Source: Desulfobacula sp.
GTDB taxonomy: Bacteria > Desulfobacterota > Desulfobacteria > Desulfobacterales > Desulfobacteraceae
NCBI RefSeq assembly: GCF_030145145.1
Contig: NZ_JAQYWD010000007.1
Location: 93,012-157,011 of the forward strand
Reading direction: 5' to 3'
Length of the DNA: 64,000 nucleotides
This document shows, in pieces, positions 21,875 through 52,784 of the stretch. Both the position numbers and the translations under genes were made by a program. How positions within the stretch are numbered: position 1 is the stretch's first letter; every line of letters begins with the position of its first letter. The notes below the pieces were generated by a model. The model was not told the origin of the DNA. It saw only the letters and a list, made by a program, of their open reading frames with translations, and made no database searches.

Positions 21875-22381
21875 TTATTGGTTAATATATTTCATAATCA
21901 TTTGCACTGAATCAGGAGTGTCCCATTGGGAACCCCCAATAACTTTTTCACGGATTATCCCCTGTTTATCAACAATGAAAGTTTCAGGCAAACCTGTTAA
22001 AAAATATTTTGAACCCACCACATTCTGAGCATCATCAAGAATGGGAATAGTTATACCCTTTTGGTTTGCAACGAAATCCGCCAGGGCCGTCTTGTCCTTG
22101 TTCAGGATAGCGAGCATTTTGAAATTATGTTTAGGTAGCGTTGTGTAAAGGTTCTGCATTGAAGGTAACTCTTTCAGGCAAGGGGGGCACCAGGTTGCCC
22201 AGAAATTGATAAATACTACCTGCCCCTTAAGTTCGGAAAGCGTCCAGGTCTTACTCTGCCTGTCAATCAAAGAAAAATCCGGTGCGGGATCACCTACCTT
22301 TAAAATAGCGGTTTCCTGTCCACAGGCAAAAATGAACAGGGACAGACAAAATGTTAAGGTTAGAAATAACAACTTTTTCAT
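21875..22381 (-). CDS. TlpA-like thiol-disulfide oxidoreductase, lipoprotein
   Basis: A 168-residue periplasmic redoxin. The N-terminus LTFCLSLFIFACGQE is a lipoprotein signal with Cys20 as the likely lipidated residue. The thioredoxin active site is WATWCPPC, and a cis-proline occurs in GLPETFIVD. Such proteins reduce apocytochrome c or other exported thiols. AGAGGA precedes the ATG. It stands between DsbA and the CxxC mini-protein genes. Confidence 0.9.
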   Translation of the reverse strand: MKKLLFLTLTFCLSLFIFACGQETAILKVGDPAPDFSLIDRQSKTWTLSELKGQVVFINFWATWCPPCLKELPSMQNLYTTLPKHNFKMLAILNKDKTALADFVANQKGITIPILDDAQNVVGSKYFLTGLPETFIVDKQGIIREKVIGGSQWDTPDSVQMIMKYINQ

Positions 22382-22458
22382 ATCGTTTGATTTCCTCTAA
22401 AATTTATTACTGAAGGCCCAAAACGCCATCCGTTTATTTAGCAATGGGCCCTGAATAA

Positions 22459-23112
22459 TCAATTCGAATATTGGCGGTTTATTTCTGATTGAATCAATTC
22501 ATACAATTGCTGACGTCCAAAGGTCACGAGTGGTTTTCCATTAACGAAAAAGCCCGGTGTTTTTCGAACATTAAGCGTTTTTGCATCGGCAAGATCCTGT
22601 TCAATTATTTTTTCAATTGCCGGGTCATTCATATCTTTTTTAATTTGATCTACATTAATTCCGGCCTTTGGTAAAAATTGCCATATTTTTTCGGGGTGTG
22701 CAACATGATGACTCGTCCAGTATGCCTGAGATTTGAACATCACATCCAAAGTCTCCCAATATTTTCCTTGTTTTTTTGCAGCTTCAAGAATTTTTACAAA
22801 GTAATCAGCTCCCTCATGAAAAGGAGCATATCTAAGAACCAGCTTTATTTTGCCGGGATTGGCAGCCATCATTTGTTTAACAAGGGGGGAAAAAGCAGCG
22901 CAGGTCTCACATGCCGGGTCCATAAATTCAACAAGAAAGACCTTTGCGTCATCGTTGCCAAGTATCTGGGAATAGTCCCTCACAAAAGTTGAAGCATTGT
23001 TTTGGGCCATAAAGTTATACATTTGAGCTTGTTGATTTTTATAATAAAAACTGGTTGCCGCAAATATACCAATCAAAACAAGGCAGGTGCCTGCAAATAT
23101 TTTATATTTCAT
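22459..23112 (-). CDS. DsbA-like periplasmic thiol oxidoreductase
   Basis: A 217-residue exported thioredoxin-fold protein with an N-terminal membrane anchor (residues 5-25). The active site is CETC in MDPACETCAAFSP and a cis-proline lies in VRKTPGFFVNG, the Thioredoxin_4/BdbD pattern. GGAGG precedes the start, which abuts the DsbB stop, so the pair is co-translated. The expected role is disulfide introduction with DsbB reoxidising it. Confidence 0.9.
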   Translation of the reverse strand: MKYKIFAGTCLVLIGIFAATSFYYKNQQAQMYNFMAQNNASTFVRDYSQILGNDDAKVFLVEFMDPACETCAAFSPLVKQMMAANPGKIKLVLRYAPFHEGADYFVKILEAAKKQGKYWETLDVMFKSQAYWTSHHVAHPEKIWQFLPKAGINVDQIKKDMNDPAIEKIIEQDLADAKTLNVRKTPGFFVNGKPLVTFGRQQLYELIQSEINRQYSN

Positions 23113-23547
23113 TTAAGATATCCTCCGCTTTAATAGAACTAAAAGTATTATAATTATTGAAAACGAAATCAAAGAAATCATGGGGATTGTTAAGAAACCA
23201 AACAAATCTATGTATTCCTCCGTACATGAAACCCCCTGACTGCATGGCTGTAGATCCTGTGGTATAATTCCGGAGTAGAGTAAGTTATGGTAAAACGCTG
23301 TTATCCAGCCTGCAATTGCCAGGGGCAGCGAATATTTTATTGCATGCTTGTCGAAAGGAAAAAGCCCTGTGGCCAAAATGATAACCAGAGGGAATAAACA
23401 TATCCTTTGGTACCAGCACAAAACACAGGGGGCAAACGCCATTACATGACTGAAAAACAGACTTCCCAGAGTTGATACAGTAACCAAAACCCAGGCTGAA
23501 AAAAGAATAGCCCAGTTTTTATTGGATTCTTGAATTGTTTGTGACAT
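23113..23547 (-). CDS. dsbB: Disulfide bond formation protein DsbB/BdbC
   Basis: A 144-residue inner-membrane quinone reductase that reoxidises DsbA. Four hydrophobic segments are present. The first redox pair is CVLC in APCVLCWYQR and the second is CSQGVSC in the second periplasmic loop, the compact BdbC spacing. It lies directly upstream of the DsbA gene. A disulfide-forming pathway in an anaerobe would discharge electrons to menaquinone. Confidence 0.92.
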   Translation of the reverse strand: MSQTIQESNKNWAILFSAWVLVTVSTLGSLFFSHVMAFAPCVLCWYQRICLFPLVIILATGLFPFDKHAIKYSLPLAIAGWITAFYHNLLYSGIIPQDLQPCSQGVSCTEEYIDLFGFLTIPMISLISFSIIIILLVLLKRRIS

Positions 23548-24515: not shown

Positions 24516-26537
24516 TTATTCTTTTTTTTCATATCCCATGGGCAGTTGTTTAAACCGACCGCCATGGATGATGGGGTCCCCTTTATATCCCAGGGCTTTA
24601 AAATTGATATAATCGGTTTTTTCAATCAAATGCGCCACATCCCTTCCCTGGGATTTCATGTAGGAAAAGTCTGTCCCCTTGTGGGCAATCTGTTTAAAAT
24701 TAACATTGCGATTGTCCTGGTGGCAGCGGTTACAGGTTTTGTCCCCTTTAAGGCTGTCATGACACTGAACACAGGACAGGGCCATGTTGGCCGGCATGAC
24801 TTCATGGTCCAGGCGCCAGTACATCCAGGTCTCTTTCCACCTGTATGATCCGCTGTAGTCAAGCCCCACCGCCTTCATACCATCCTGGAACGCTTTTTCC
24901 CAATCAAAGTGTTTCCAGTAAGCTGTGCTGTCTTCCTTGTCCCGGGGCCAGAGATGGGGAACCAGGATATAATCATGGTCTGCATCCACCGCCTGGATCG
25001 CTTTCATCATTTTAAACGGGGTTATTTTGGATCCTGGATCATGAATGGACCCCACAGGCTCAGTGAGGTTGATAATATCGGCATTGATGTCCACCTTGTC
25101 GCCGATGAAGACGCGCTTCATATAGCCTGAGTCCCATGCATAATTGGGTACGGCAGATTCTTCCCATTTGAATTCACCCTTTTTCTTGTTGTAATCGGGT
25201 TTGCCGTATTTGTCTTTTTTGGGTTTACGGTTTTTGTCCCCGGCTTTGGACCAGTCCCACCAGGTCTTGGTGGGTTTGCATTTGGCAAAAACCGGTGCAT
25301 GACAGACATTGCAGTCCAGGGTTTTGGCATGGTTGTTTAAATGGTGATCCAGAACACTGCCGCAATAGTGGGGGTCTTCTGAATGGCACTGCTGGCAGGA
25401 CACCTTGCCTTCGGCAACCGGGACGGATGAGCTCCGGCCCGCAATTTTATGGTTCCGTGTCTCATGGCACTCGGTACAGGAAAAATCATATCCCCCCATG
25501 TGAATATCACAGCTCCGGCTGGGTTCAAGGAGCTGCCGGGACAGGTCTGCATGTTTAACCGCATCCCCTCCCCCGCCATTGAAGTGGCAGGAGCCGCAAC
25601 TGGCACGACTGGAATGACCCACATTCTGGGCAACCAATTTCAAGTCCACATCTTTTTCGGGCATGCCAGCTCCCGGCGGTGCTTTTTTATATTTGCCCGT
25701 GGTATCATGGCACACCAGGCAATCCATTTTTGTTTTATCGGTGAAATCAAATGACGCATCTTTCCATCCATACCCTGCATGACAGCTTGTGCAACGAGCC
25801 TCGTTGCTGATGGGGCTGATTCAGTAGTTGTTCAGGGCGGTGGTGCCCTTGCCGTGCATGATATCCTTTCGATGCCCTGTGGTATAAGGAGAGGGCCCTT
25901 TCCACAGCCAGTGGGCGGTTGTCAGCATGTCTTCTGCCTGGGTGTCATGGCACCGCAGACATTCTGCCGTCACCTGGAAGGGATCTGCATTGTCCGGCAA
26001 GTTCACCAGTTCTTTATGATCGGGAACATTCTGCAAATGACACCCTTTGCAGTCCACAGGCCCTTTGGCCTGTTCCTGGTGGCAGGCCATACATTGTTGA
26101 TGGTATGCGGCCTTAAGGCCGATCCGCTCCGGATGATCCGGGTTAAAAGAGTCCTGATGGCAGGCAGAGCACCGTGTTGTTTCCAGGGCAGTGTCATCTT
26201 TTGGCCGGTAATGATGGCACTTGCTGCAATCGTTGGTGAGATTTGCATGCCGTTTGTGGGAAAACCGCACCGGCTCGTAATGGTCTTCTCTTTTTTTGAT
26301 GATGGGACTGTCCAGCAGGAAATAGGTATCTGTCACATCTTGTATGGAGATGCCGGTATCCATAAGGGATATCCGCCGTGTAATCTGATCGTCATTCTTG
26401 TATTCTGTCACAAAGGGGACCACTTCCTTTGCCCGTTCCTTTGCCCGTTCCTGATCTGGTGCCTTCCAGACCTCTGCCACACAAAGGACAGGGGTCAAAA
26501 TCAGGCAAGTCACCAGAAAAATAATGCGCTTTATCAT
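24516..26537 (-). CDS. Putative selenocysteine-containing octahaem tetrathionate reductase-like cytochrome c (13 CxxCH), UGA read-through
   Basis: Two adjacent frames are one gene broken only by UGA at 25821-25823. Read through, it gives 673 residues: a signal peptide, four CxxCH in an N-terminal c3-like segment (CSKCH, CSACH, CMACH, CKGCH), then CLRCH, NNY-UGA, CTSCH, CLVCH, CGSCH, CTECH, CQQCH, CNVCH, CVQCH and CNRCH. From CLRCH on it follows the octahaem tetrathionate reductase (OTR) family, including GYGWKD and GGGGDAVKH, which holds the Asp and the haem-ligand Lys of the OTR active site. UGA replaces the active-site Cys of NNFC. A SECIS-like hairpin follows. A simple nonsense mutation is the alternative, but both halves are intact. 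ATGA overlap couples it to the HybB-like gene upstream. Confidence 0.82.
25783..25823 (-). promoter_or_regulatory. SECIS-like stem-loop following the in-frame UGA
   Basis: Minus-strand RNA after the UGA contains GCAACGAGGCUCGUUGC (25807-25791): a 6-bp stem with the loop AGGCU, or 7 bp around GGC. CAGC and GCUG form a possible lower stem. The apical loop begins 19 bases after the UGA; in E. coli fdhF the distance is 17 and the loop is AGGUCU. Both the distance and the GG-containing loop fit bacterial SECIS rules. Confidence 0.7.
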
Positions 26538-27733
26538 GTTGAGACCTCCTTGGGTGCCTGTAAAACCGGCAGATATGTCACAGCAAATCGATAGATAAAC
26601 ATCAGCGTTGCAATGAGTCCCAGCGTGACCATCAGTTCTCCGGGTGCAGGGAAATAAACGTTTTCACTCAATGGCGGTTGGTATCCGACAATAAACACAT
26701 TGATCCGGTTCAGCGCCACACCACCGACAATCAAAGACGCTGCTGTAAAAATACCGGTCCGGGAATGCCTGACCCGTTCAAAAAGCAGCATCACCCAGGG
26801 CATGATCACCCCGAACAGCAGTTCTATTACAAATGAATTGGTCTGATAATTCCCATCGAAAAGGTACACATAGGTCCCCCTGACAACCATGTCGCCAATT
26901 TTGAGCAGCAGGTAGATGCCCAGGAGAAAAATCGTCACCCGGGTTAACGGTGTCAGAATATTCATCTCGGCATCCAATTTGAATGAAGACGTGGCAATGG
27001 TTGTTTCAACCACCACCATTGGATACCCCACGGCAAAGGCGGATGTCAGGAACAAAAGGGGTAAAATGGGGGTGTACCACAACGGGTGAAGTTTGGTGGG
27101 TGCCACCAGCATGAGGGACCCCAGACTGGATTGATGCATACAGGACAGGACAACCCCGAGAATGATAAAGATCCACATGATTTTATCCAGGATGGCATCC
27201 CCGATTTTCAGTATCATATCCACCAGGCCATTCAATGCGGACAACAGACCCGGAAGGTTCACCCGGCCTTTAAACTGCTCTGCAATAATGGGAAAAAATT
27301 CGATGTATAACACATTCAGATACACCATGACACACATGGCCACTTCAAACAGAACCGAGTTGGTGTTCCAGTTCACCATGGGTTTCCATATGGCCCAGGA
27401 CCGGCCGATATCCACTAAAAGCCCCAGGACAACAAAGGTATATCCCAGTACTGCCGTTAACAGTGCCGGCCGCGTAATGGGTTCGTAGAGATGTTTTCCA
27501 AGGATGTGCGCCAGGGCAGCCGTCGTAAACCCGCCGGCAGCAAGGGCAACACCGGTGGCCACATCCACGCCCACCCAGAGTCCCCAGGGCCGGGCATTGC
27601 TCAGATTGGTGACATACCCGATGCCGCCGGTAAATCTGGCAATAATAGAGATGGCCCCGGCAATCATAAACACCAGCATGACAAACACACCGGGGGTCCA
27701 GAATTTTTTATTTAAAGGACGTGCTCGCATCAT
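26534..27733 (-). CDS. HybB/NrfD-type quinol-oxidising membrane subunit
   Basis: A 399-residue polytopic membrane protein, about ten helices, of the NrfD/HybB/PsrC family. It has the characteristic early segment [23 protein letters not shown]. Members oxidise menaquinol and pass electrons to a HybA-type ferredoxin partner. ATGA overlaps join it to HybA upstream and to the UGA-containing cytochrome downstream, so the three are one translationally coupled unit. AAAGGAGG precedes the ATGATG start. Confidence 0.93.
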
Positions 27734-28644
27734 GCCCCTCCTTTGTTTTGCTGCTTTTCAGCTGTTTTATTTGATTTGGACATGACCGCACCTAAAACGC
27801 CAAACAGTGCCAGGGGCGACCACAGATAGCTGAACAGCGAATGTTGTATGGTTTCAGACAGTTTGGGTGAGGGAGTGTCCGGTAACACCGGCAGATTCAA
27901 GCGATCAAAGGGTATCGCCGAAATGTAGAGCCATGATGTGCCGCCGACCTCCCGCTCACCATACACATGCTGGATATATTTGCCTGGATTGTCTTTCAGC
28001 TTTTTATTGGCCACTTTTAAAAGGGTTTCGCGTTTTCCAAATGTCAGCGCCTCTGTGGGACAGATGGTTGCACAGCCGGGGATCCCCCCGTCTTTGGATA
28101 TCCTGTCATAACAAAAAGTACATTTCATCACCCGGGGGGTGATGGGATCATGATATTCATAGGCAGGAATTTCAAAGGGACAGGCCACCATACAATATCG
28201 GCAGCCAATGCATTTGCTTACATCATATCTGACCGTACCGGTCTCATCTTTGGTCAATGCACCGACAATGCAGGCAGATACACAGGCCGGGTCCTGACAA
28301 TGCATGCACTGAACCTTGACAAAGGTTGGCAGGGGGTTGTCAAACGCATCCAGTTTGCCGGTAAAATACCGGTTGACCACTGTAAACGCTTTTTCATCCG
28401 GCCGCCGTTTTTTCTCAAAGATCGTACATTGGCAATTGGGCCGTTCCGGTGTGGGCAGACCATTCACCTCACTGCAGGCCTCCTCGCATTTGCGACAGCC
28501 AACGCACCGGGTCAGATCCACCAGACATCCATACGGATCCGGGGGGGCTTTAGATTCCCATGCGCTGGCAGATGACGGCAGTGCTGCCACAGAGGCACCG
28601 GCTGCTCCCATGAATTTAAAAAAATGTCGTCTCGTAAGTTTCAT
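27730..28644 (-). CDS. HybA-type [4Fe-4S] ferredoxin subunit, Tat-exported
   Basis: A 304-residue periplasmic electron-transfer protein. The twin-arginine signal [13 protein letters not shown] starts at residue 3. Four cluster motifs follow: [35 protein letters not shown] and CTFCYDRI with CATICP. A C-terminal helix ([14 protein letters not shown]) anchors it, as in HybA. The start at 28644 has GAGAGG directly upstream. It links the HybB-like quinol oxidase to the multihaem cytochrome encoded downstream. Confidence 0.93.
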
Positions 28645-28710
28645 ATCCTCTCCCATGAATAACCATCCATATCAATTGTACCTTCACCTTCCGGGGCGAT
28701 AAAACCGATT

Positions 28711-28986
28711 TTAAACATAACTTGTCCGGGTCACTTGATCCTTATGATTATAACTTCGCGACCCTTTTTGTATGCCAAGACAAATGCCATCATCGGCCTC
28801 GTTCGTATATATCACCTCATCATTGGATCTTTTCACAATGATGATCAAATCCTTTACCACATCCCTGTCTGCCAGCATGACCTCTAATATTTCCCCTTTC
28901 TCCATGGATTTAAGGCGGCTTTTGCATTTGAGCAGATTCAGCGGTGAAATGACGCCCCTGAGATCCAATCTGATTTTTGATGTCAT
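28711..28986 (-). CDS. TusA/SirA-like protein lacking the catalytic cysteine
   Basis: A 91-residue TusA-fold protein: LDLRGVISPLNLLKCKSRLK, then MEKGEILEVMLAD and VIIVKR-type strands. Family members carry sulfur on the Cys of a CPxP motif; here the position reads ISPL with Ser instead of Cys, so direct persulfide transfer by that residue is not possible. A Cys six residues later may substitute. The start at 28986 has GGGAG before it. It is first in the cytochrome operon, just below a sigma-54 promoter. Confidence 0.8.
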   Translation of the reverse strand: MTSKIRLDLRGVISPLNLLKCKSRLKSMEKGEILEVMLADRDVVKDLIIIVKRSNDEVIYTNEADDGICLGIQKGSRSYNHKDQVTRTSYV

Positions 28987-29030
28987 ACCGACTCCCACCC
29001 TTAAACAATAAAATAATAAAAAGACCAGGG

Positions 29031-29047
29031 TTGCAACAGGCGTACCG
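29031..29047 (-). promoter_or_regulatory. Sigma-54 promoter of the TusA-HybA-HybB-cytochrome operon
   Basis: The minus strand reads CGGTACGCCTGTTGCAA: GG and GC are ten bases apart, the ACG and TTGCA parts match the consensus, and only two positions deviate. It lies about 45 bases before the TusA-like start and about 115-175 bases from the TTTAAAC dyads by regulator B. Confidence 0.72.
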
Positions 29048-29123
29048 TTGACACCCGACAGGTCTCCTGAAATCCCTATCTATCTGGTTTTATGTATAAA
29101 ATATTCGGATTAAGTGGGGCCGG

Positions 29124-29152
29124 TTGACACTGGGAAAAATTGATAGTATTTA
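29124..29152 (+). promoter_or_regulatory. Sigma-70 promoter of regulator B
   Basis: TTGACA (29124-29129) and TATTTA (29147-29152) are separated by 17 bases. The operator dyads start immediately downstream, where a bound protein would block the polymerase. Confidence 0.6.
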
Positions 29153-29159
29153 AATATAT

Positions 29160-29207
29160 GTTTAAATGTGAGTCACATTTAAACGATTGTTTAAACACTT
29201 AAACAAT
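29160..29207. promoter_or_regulatory. Double TTTAAAC dyad: operator/enhancer of regulator B
   Basis: First dyad: GTTTAAATGTG and CACATTTAAAC, 11-bp perfect arms with a three-base spacer (29160-29184). Second: ATTGTTTAA and TTAAACAAT with a four-base spacer (29186-29207). Both are likely sites for the Fis-type HTH of the adjacent regulator, serving autorepression and activation of the divergent cytochrome operon. Confidence 0.75.
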
Positions 29208-29225
29208 TGTTAACGGAGGGCGTTA

Positions 29226-30623
29226 ATGAATGAGCATGAGATGAATACGTTCTGGAAAAAAATTGTCAATACCATTAATGACGGATTGATGTTCATTGGG
29301 CCCGAAGGGTCCATTTTAATGGTCAATAAAGCCTTTGAAACCCTCACCGGATATACGTCAAAACAAGCCATCGGCATGTCCTGCGAGATGCTGGGGTGTG
29401 ATGCCTGTGAACACACCCTTCAAACGAACAAACAATCGGCATGGTGCAAATTGTTTGAACCGGGCCAGCAGGATATGAAAAAATGCAGATGTCATGTGAA
29501 GTGCAAGGATGGCAGTTTTTTACCGGTGTTAAAAAATGCGTCCGTGCTGTGGGATGAAAACCAGACAGCCCTCGGCATTGTTGAAACGTTAACCGACATT
29601 TCCGAGTTGACCAAACTGGATGAAAAGGTCCATATCCTTTCCCGGCAATGCGACAGGGAAAATGATTTTCTCGGTATCGTGGGCAGATCGCCTGAAATGC
29701 AGCAGGTGTTTGACATGATTCGAAAAGCGGCGGACAGCAGAGCACCTGTCATCATTCTGGGGGAAAGCGGCACCGGAAAAGAACTGGTGGCAAATGCGAT
29801 TCATTTATGCGGTTCCCGGAAGAACGGCCCATTTCTTCAGCTCAATTGCGCGGCATTGAATGACGCCGTCCTTGAAAGTGAATTGTTCGGCCATGCCAAA
29901 GGGGCTTTCACCGGTGCTTACAATAATCGTATCGGTCGATTTGAAGCGGCCAACAATGGTGATTTTTTCCTGGATGAAATTGGTGATATCCCCATGTCGA
30001 TTCAGACCAAACTCTTGCGGGTTCTCGAGTCAGGACAATTTGAAAGAGTGGGGGATATCTCCCCCATCAAGGTGGACGTCCGCATTATTACCGCCACCAA
30101 CAGGGATCTTGAGGAACTGATCGATAAAAATGAATTCCGACAGGATTTGCTGTTCAGGATTAATGTTATTCCCATCCACCTGCCGCCCTTGAGAAACAGG
30201 CGAGAAGATATCCCTTTGTTAATCCATTCGTTTATTCGTCACCTGAATATCCATACCGGCAAACACATCAACGGGTTAAGTCATGGTGCCATGGAAGCGG
30301 TCATGGATTACCGCTGGCCAGGCAATATCAGGGAACTGAAAAATGCCATGGAGTATGCGTTTGTCATAACAGACGGCCCGGCCATCCAGCAGGACCATTT
30401 ACCCAGGAAAATCAGTGCGGCAAACCTCCCCATCTATTCCCCTGCCCCGCCCTTGCCCAAAAAAGATGCCGCGTTCAATGAAAAAGCGCAATTGATCGAA
30501 GCGCTCCAACAGACAAACGGCAACCAGACAAAGGCGGCAAAACTGCTGAAGATTAACAGGGTGACGGTCTGGAACCGGATGAGAAAATACGGACTTGACC
30601 TGAAAAAAGTGTTGTCCGTATGA
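29226..30623 (+). CDS. Sigma-54 regulator B: cysteine-rich PAS, AAA+, Fis-type HTH
   Basis: A 465-residue enhancer-binding protein with the same plan as regulators A and C. Its PAS domain is the richest in cysteine: CEMLGCDACEH, WCKLF, and KKCRCHVKCKDG, nine in about 60 residues. AAA+ landmarks are [22 protein letters not shown] and WPGNIREL. The HTH reads NQTKAAKLLKINRVTVWNRM, which differs from A and C at the recognition helix, in line with its different operator. GGAGGG precedes the start by five bases. It is divergent from the UGA-containing cytochrome operon and is its likely activator. Confidence 0.93.
   Translation: MNEHEMNTFWKKIVNTINDGLMFIGPEGSILMVNKAFETLTGYTSKQAIGMSCEMLGCDACEHTLQTNKQSAWCKLFEPGQQDMKKCRCHVKCKDGSFLPVLKNASVLWDENQTALGIVETLTDISELTKLDEKVHILSRQCDRENDFLGIVGRSPEMQQVFDMIRKAADSRAPVIILGESGTGKELVANAIHLCGSRKNGPFLQLNCAALNDAVLESELFGHAKGAFTGAYNNRIGRFEAANNGDFFLDEIGDIPMSIQTKLLRVLESGQFERVGDISPIKVDVRIITATNRDLEELIDKNEFRQDLLFRINVIPIHLPPLRNRREDIPLLIHSFIRHLNIHTGKHINGLSHGAMEAVMDYRWPGNIRELKNAMEYAFVITDGPAIQQDHLPRKISAANLPIYSPAPPLPKKDAAFNEKAQLIEALQQTNGNQTKAAKLLKINRVTVWNRMRKYGLDLKKVLSV

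Positions 30624-50561: not shown

Positions 50562-52784
<2,223 letters not shown>

Follow-up and report, generated by a model that had tools for sequence, protein, structure and literature searches.

Predicted selenocysteine at the probable active-site cysteine position of an octahaem tetrathionate reductase-type cytochrome in Desulfobacula sp.

We analysed 64,000 nucleotides of Desulfobacula sp. (assembly GCF_030145145.1, contig NZ_JAQYWD010000007.1, positions 93,012 to 157,011), called “the window” in the following, and report on a minus-strand gene for a multihaem c-type cytochrome that contains one in-frame UGA codon. Almost certainly, selenocysteine (Sec) is inserted at this UGA in place of cysteine, as an earlier reading of the same DNA (the original prediction) had proposed from the sequence. 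We are highly confident that the UGA would be decoded with the help of a hairpin behind it, and that the residue, Sec239, would correspond to Cys64 of the Shewanella oneidensis octahaem tetrathionate reductase (OTR), a position likely to be within the pocket of the catalytic haem with its Lys ligand. Sec239 probably belongs to the active site of a 13-haem cytochrome that combines a cytochrome c3 domain with an OTR domain (c3-OTR) on a putative Hmc/Hyb-like membrane module. The UGA is assigned to Sec because UGA and Cys codons interchange at this position, the genome carries the Sec machinery, the hairpin coincides with a constraint on synonymous change, and the protein is equally conserved on both sides of the UGA. 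Desulfobacula is a sulfate-reducing genus, and the host is probably a sulfate-reducing bacterium.

The minus-strand frame from 26537 to 24516 comprises 673 codons with a single internal TGA (25823-25821, codon 239), i.e. two cytochrome frames in one phase that are parted only by the UGA, as had been described. The motifs named in the original prediction are all in place: CLRCH (193), NNY-UGA (236-239), SNEARCTSCHAGYGWKD, and GGGGDAVKH with D325 and K328. The gene has the following features:

24516..26537, minus strand: predicted c3-OTR selenocytochrome gene, 673 codons, UGA at codon 239, 13 CxxCH motifs (4 + 9), family TIGR04315
25821..25823, minus strand: in-frame TGA, predicted Sec239, aligned with Cys64 of the Shewanella OTR structure 1SP3
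25791..25807, minus strand: predicted Sec insertion sequence (SECIS) hairpin of type A, GCAACGA / GGC / TCGTTGC, 7 base pairs, the 3′ arm ending in the first Cys codon of CTSCH (249)
26037..26288, minus strand: N-terminal tetrahaem cytochrome c3 domain, residues 84-167 (PF02085; second Foldseek match 3cao, E 4.1e-3)
24753..25991, minus strand: OTR domain, residues 183-595 (TIGR04315; 1SP3 E 1.3e-113; Foldseek 1sp3 E 6.5e-40)
25554..25565, minus strand: D325 to K328 (GGGGDAVKH), aligned with Asp150 and the haem ligand Lys153 of 1SP3

The read-through protein exceeds the curated cut-off of TIGR04315 (489.7 versus 375 bits, residues 183-595). Four CxxCH motifs lie in the c3 domain and nine thereafter (after residue 190); with its eight haem motifs and the Lys at the ligand column, the OTR core is consistent with membership in the OTR family. 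Matches to 12 sequences of solved structures were obtained, of which 1SP3 alone extends over the OTR domain (384.5 bits, E 1.3e-113, residues 174-594). A Foldseek search with the AlphaFold model of the read-through protein returned 1SP3 on top (E 6.5e-40, 42% identity), followed by cytochrome c3 (3cao, E 4.1e-3). The window holds 26 candidate TGA read-throughs with at least 60 codons open on each side. That of the cytochrome is the longest, and none of comparable length was found among the 25 of the 26 candidates listed.

The alignment with 1SP3 pairs N61, C64, D150, and K153 with N236, UGA239, D325, and K328 of the window protein, in agreement with the Shewanella numbering given in the original prediction. 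UGA239 is located ten residues ahead of the second CxxCH (249) of the OTR part. To place this column in its family, relatives were collected by searches with TIGR04315, with a match in 75 of 97 relatives (70 over the cut-off) and in 185 of 395 genomes of the phylum (69 over the cut-off), and by a search of genome contigs with P0001 (61 loci). All TGA matches over the family cut-off were fetched and Cys matches only in part, so that the Sec and Cys counts are not frequencies. In 199 aligned OTR domains, the Cys64 column has Cys in 109, UGA in 86, Thr in one (L216), and a gap in three, namely one frame-broken gene represented by two rows (L081 and L160) and a fragment at a contig end (L095). A Cys or Sec codon is thus found in 195 of the 199 domains, as the original prediction had proposed to check, and the column of the haem ligand Lys153 is Lys in all 199. 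The codons in the 177 rows that remain after removal of identical DNA are TGA (73), TGC (63), TGT (40), and ACT (1). Gene copies with frame breaks occur in metagenome bins (L079, and L081 with L160); the breaks are probably assembly errors, and these copies do not enter the tree described below. The window's own genome also encodes a second OTR of another subfamily (L179, 549 aa), which has TGT (Cys) at the Cys64 column.

Under translation table 11 the frame yields two open reading frames of 238 aa (25821-26537) and, from an internal ATG, of 403 aa (24516-25727), as would be expected if the UGA were an ordinary stop or a nonsense mutation and the halves a broken or split gene. That automatic annotation splits the gene, as had been foreseen, is also visible in the databases, where five of 120 relatives listed are C-terminal fragments of 382-405 aa without the column. 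Four of the five begin 32-35 residues past it (M271 in window numbering), and the fifth further on. Such fragments, too, would be in line with a broken or split gene. Against a stop, the UGA occupies one and the same column in 73 of the 177 distinct rows, and mean identity to the window within the OTR part is nearly the same upstream (0.827) and downstream (0.808) of it in the 46 Sec rows of the window clade. Together with the hairpin and the synonymous constraint described below, these values make a true stop hardly credible. A pseudogene or sequencing error, and likewise a stop followed by re-initiation, were ruled out by the conserved UGA, the synonymous constraint, and the equal conservation on either side.

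The genome check that had been suggested for selA, selB, selC, and selD found all four. The window's own genome has one match over the cut-off for each, i.e. tRNA-Sec (selC) with 76.5 bits (cut-off 47), SelB with 346.7 bits (242.25), SelA with 603.1 bits (267.9), and SelD with 366 bits (125), and thus holds the machinery expected for bacterial selenoproteins. Its selD gene itself contains one in-frame TGA, and two formate dehydrogenase genes (fdhA) over the cut-off have one TGA apiece. The hairpins of the two fdhA genes, selD, and the OTR gene are alike: the inner stem begins 14-16 bases past the first base of the UGA, and the loop opens with GG. The UGA might in principle be read as another amino acid, by near-cognate insertion of Trp or Cys. 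The complete Sec machinery, the shared hairpin layout of other TGA-bearing genes of selenoprotein type in the same genome, and the exchange with Cys codons at the column make this very improbable.

The conserved in-frame UGA aligned with Cys is followed directly by a hairpin, a predicted bacterial SECIS. In the window clade (47 rows, 35 of them distinct), codons +5 to +10 past the UGA show 0 synonymous differences, compared with a mean of 0.484 over 433 scored codons; this is the lowest value among 428 segments, and no other segment is as low. The same complete absence of synonymous change was found in six distinct OTR-only Sec rows with the type A hairpin (1 of 302 segments). A second hairpin, type B (CTGGTGC / loop AGGT in most rows / GCACCAG), is present in other Sec rows; in 24 of them, synonymous change at codons +6 to +11 is 0.032 versus 0.542 overall (1 of 325 segments). 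In Cys relatives, codons +5 to +10 show ordinary synonymous change (0.467 versus 0.514 in 15 rows; 0.447 versus 0.443 in 17 rows). The comparison with Cys relatives that had been proposed showed that the hairpin goes with the Sec rows and is all but absent from the Cys rows. All seven pairs of the type A stem can form in 41 of 41 distinct type A Sec rows versus 1 of 103 Cys rows, and the type B stem is complete in 30 of 30 distinct type B Sec rows versus 0 of 103 Cys rows; the types were assigned by encoded residues (E-A/S or W-C), and these counts are not wholly independent of the typing. Type B includes one compensatory pair change, C-G to U-A, in three rows and a G-U pair in two rows. The remaining two distinct Sec rows, L177 (G249) and L178 (G360), have neither hairpin type. 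They are divergent OTR-like multihaem genes below the family cut-off, with TGA at the same column in a different context, and possibly represent another Sec cytochrome family.

Both hairpins are written in codons of the adjoining haem motif, the 3′ arm of type B spanning parts of the Cys, Thr, and Ser codons, and the price is visible in the protein. As the types are defined, the 41 type A rows have Ala or Ser two residues ahead of the haem-motif Cys, and the 30 type B rows have Cys there. EA, ES, and WC combinations are absent from all 103 Cys rows, 60 of which have Pro. Two residues ahead of the haem motif, type B Sec proteins (e.g. L123 and L127) carry an additional Cys (NWC-x-C), which either came along with the hairpin or acts as a redox partner of Sec.

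For a tree, rows with a motif not starting with N or with fewer than 380 aligned residues were dropped (190 of 199 kept), as were L079, a frameshifted copy, and L058, a duplicate of L198. Same-state rows of >95% identity were then removed (164 kept), followed by those of >85% (125 rows plus 1SP3). The resulting tree of 126 rows (44 Sec, 81 Cys including 1SP3, and 1 Thr) was built by a quick method, with the trait column left out and Shimodaira-Hasegawa-like approximate likelihood ratio test values as the only support, and gives no direction of change. It requires at least six changes between Cys and Sec, all six forced by the starred branches. Shuffled labels gave 36 changes on average, and none of 500 shuffles was as low as six. 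Placing all type A rows in one clade was excluded (approximately unbiased test, p 1.03e-70), and a single type B clade was not rejected at 0.05 (p 0.056). For the occurrence of type A in two places, convergence and exchange of a short segment would both be an explanation, and the two are indistinguishable here.

Only two Cys genes were found inside the window clade, which keeps the UGA in 47 rows (35 distinct). Their sources, Desulfospira joergensenii (L058 and L198, one gene) and G046 (L199), are closely related to the window, and both genes have TGC, Pro instead of Ala, and no stem. They would be recent returns from Sec to Cys within an otherwise Sec clade. We lean slightly towards a general explanation, in which the codons of the catalytic-haem motif (R-C-T-S-C-H) can fold as a SECIS and sulfur and selenium have, for this reason, replaced each other at the active site at least six times. 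Two hairpin designs would have arisen, each at the cost of one change (Pro to Ala/Ser, or Pro to Cys), with reversion to Pro once selenium is given up.

Several observations weigh against a Sec that is inserted with the aid of this hairpin and works at the active site. The type A pairs are invariant and offer no covariation evidence, and among the Cys rows all seven of these pairs can form in L187 and six in two others. An Rfam search of the window returned only a tRNA at threshold and no SECIS match. The AlphaFold model is only moderate (mean pLDDT, the predicted local distance difference test score, 73.2, with most of residues 310-379 below 50). SelB was dropped as a discriminator of Sec and Cys genomes, as nearly all carry it: in a survey that covered 80 of 99 intended genomes, it was over the cut-off in 45 of 46 Sec genomes (the exception being G177, an assembly of about 610 contigs) and in 32 of 34 others. 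Its presence permits Sec in OTR and does not predict it. Lastly, the residue can be lost. In the 120 of 3806 database matches that were listed, the column has Cys in 105, Leu in 8, Thr in 1, Ala in 1, and a gap in 5, i.e. Leu, Thr, or Ala in 10, and L216 also has Thr. The Leu residues were observed in c3-OTR relatives (P0105, P0107, P0108, P0110, P0113, P0114, P0116, and P0119), which perhaps catalyse a different reaction or none.

The original prediction had put the UGA exactly on the catalytic Cys. The alignment of residue 239 with Cys64 stands; the residue itself is strongly but not universally kept in the sequences aligned, and its catalytic role is probable. Cys64 of the Shewanella enzyme reportedly lines the active-site pocket and is catalytic (structure paper of 2004). 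A putative catalytic part for Cys64 and Sec239 is supported here by the alignment, the place ten residues before the second haem motif, and the interchange of Cys and Sec. According to a paper of 2024 (PMC11024163), the second haem of OTR takes part in catalysis and has a conserved Lys as its ligand. Alternatively, Sec could be incorporated without being catalytic: it might tune haem 2, protect against oxidation, or be near neutral, with Cys and Sec drifting in Sec-rich genomes. The Leu, Thr, and Ala residues are compatible with this, as is the operon described below, which is common to Cys and Sec forms. It is nevertheless unlikely, as Cys or Sec stands next to an invariant Lys ligand in 195 of the 199 domains, and as the window clade has retained the UGA despite the cost of recoding and the accompanying substitution.

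Among the closest known systems is the Shewanella OTR (1SP3, SO4144; TIGR04315), which belongs to the same family and aligns with the window protein at N61, C64, D150, and K153. In contrast to it, the window protein has a Sec codon for Cys64, is extended at the N terminus by a tetrahaem c3 domain, and has a ninth CxxCH in its OTR part, and its operon includes Hmc/Hyb-like membrane subunits. The original prediction had known of no selenoprotein in this family, a view that is overtaken by one table row of a review of May 2026 (PMC13188914). Among Sec-containing families, it lists TIGR04315, the NCBIfam family of the window protein, as annotated in GenBank, with the Sec motif not available, the accession WP_331457571.1, and a 1, which we take as the Sec count. 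Its main text has the words octaheme and tetrathionate once each, and its relevant parts contain nothing on the site, the hairpin, evolution, or the operon. Both words are absent from the main text of a review of 2022 (PMC9312934). Another multihaem c-type cytochrome with a predicted Sec was described in 2007 (GSU2937+GSU2936, PMC1914089) and is probably the same protein as ExtKL (NF040886, PMC13188914). As far as these sources describe it, it differs from OTR in having five CXXCH in the N-terminal part and a C-terminal part unlike characterised proteins, and it is not listed under the OTR family. Among the matches listed from the open full-text literature, which leaves subscription papers mostly outside, no other paper on Sec in OTR, the hairpins, or the switching was found. 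Sec in the OTR family is thus not unprecedented; the residue-level placement, the hairpins, the switching, and the operon are added here and were not found in the literature searched.

A Sec working beside a Lys-ligated haem would, if true, be a redox site of which we know no described counterpart. OTR-type enzymes are poorly understood, and comparing close relatives could reveal what selenium does. Natural pairs that differ at the residue, e.g. Desulfocicer vacuolatum (UGA, L063) and Desulfospira joergensenii (TGC, L058), make its role directly testable. The repeated switching would be a natural laboratory for the origin of a SECIS inside coding sequence. With split database entries, the enzyme may be undercounted in sulfate reducers.

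Upstream of the cytochrome gene lie the following genes:

26534..27733, minus strand: HmcC/HybB-like membrane subunit of the NrfD family (PF03916), with a 4-base overlap with the cytochrome gene
27730..28656, minus strand: HmcB/HybA-like iron-sulfur subunit (NF008134, HybA, 278.3 bits, over the cut-off of 263; HmcB 344.1, under 420)
28711..28998, minus strand: TusA-like protein (PF01206), first gene of the operon in some members of the clade
29226..30623, plus strand: divergent sigma-54-dependent regulator with a PAS domain (PF00158, PF13426)

The conservation of this order was estimated for distinct loci with an OTR domain of at least 60% identity and enough flank. The HmcC-like gene is next upstream of the cytochrome gene in 29 of 30 Sec and 8 of 8 Cys loci, and the HmcB-like gene is upstream in 27 of 28 Sec and 5 of 5 Cys loci. 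The TusA-like gene (14 of 27 Sec and 1 of 3 Cys loci) and the sigma-54 regulator (15 of 22 and 3 of 3) were counted likewise. The NrfD protein and c3-OTR of a sister clade are naturally fused in a single open frame (e.g. L028, L031, L036, and L190, all of them Cys loci). Both Pfam domains also lie together in P0111, a database protein of 1043 aa. Because of the conserved HmcB/HmcC gene order and this fusion, Sec and Cys forms alike would be part of one membrane-bound, quinone-linked complex. The module resembles the Hmc complex (HmcA, HmcB, and HmcC) and HybA/HybB in that iron-sulfur and NrfD subunits adjoin a multihaem c3-type cytochrome. In contrast to Hmc, HybA is the only match over its curated cut-off: the NrfD-family subunit scores 326.3 bits as HybB type (cut-off 450) and 269.1 as HmcC (550), HmcB has 344.1 (420), and the cytochrome is a c3-OTR instead of a 16-haem HmcA. 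The module is thus not assigned to the Hmc complex itself.

In the mechanism that we propose, electrons would pass from menaquinol via the NrfD protein, the iron-sulfur subunit, the four c3 haems, and the OTR haems to haem 2, where Sec239 would act on the substrate. More tentatively, the selenolate may attack the sulfane S-S bond of tetrathionate, thiosulfate, or polysulfide, and haem 2 may then reduce the resulting Se-S adduct; we favour sulfane-sulfur compounds as substrates because a selenolate suits such an attack. The Shewanella OTR reduces nitrite and hydroxylamine besides tetrathionate (PMC4484225, PMC11024163), which is compatible with a Sec enzyme that is mainly a nitrite or hydroxylamine reductase, or detoxifying, and not a reductase of sulfur compounds. 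A thiol or selenol beside a haem would fit S-S chemistry more easily, and many of the named loci come from genera that are presumably sulfate reducers, so that nitrite or hydroxylamine as the main substrate appears somewhat unlikely.

Some minor observations concern the neighbourhood of the operon. L159 (G051) is the only Sec locus without HmcC and HmcB on its own strand; HmcB and TusA matches lie on the opposite strand, due to either a local rearrangement or an assembly matter. The TusA-like protein (28711-28998) has ISPL at the position of CPxP, the expected TusA motif, and seems to be without the usual active Cys. A search with one pattern for sigma-54 promoter sites gave 16 matches, none of them within 28999-29225, between the operon and the regulator. 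ResA-, DsbA-, and DsbB-like genes (21875-23547) adjoin the operon and share its strand. The fetched loci, many of them with short flanks, gave no DsbA or DsbB match and one ResA match (30%) downstream, and these genes were not assigned to the system.

Two further observations lie apart from the operon. A short degenerate OTR stretch with TGA, TAG, and TAA (G049:C25:38233-38367) is a possible remnant of a lost OTR copy. The window also encodes, at 50571-52784, a catalase-peroxidase-like haem peroxidase of 737 aa (PF00141, two stretches), in a host that is a probable anaerobe.

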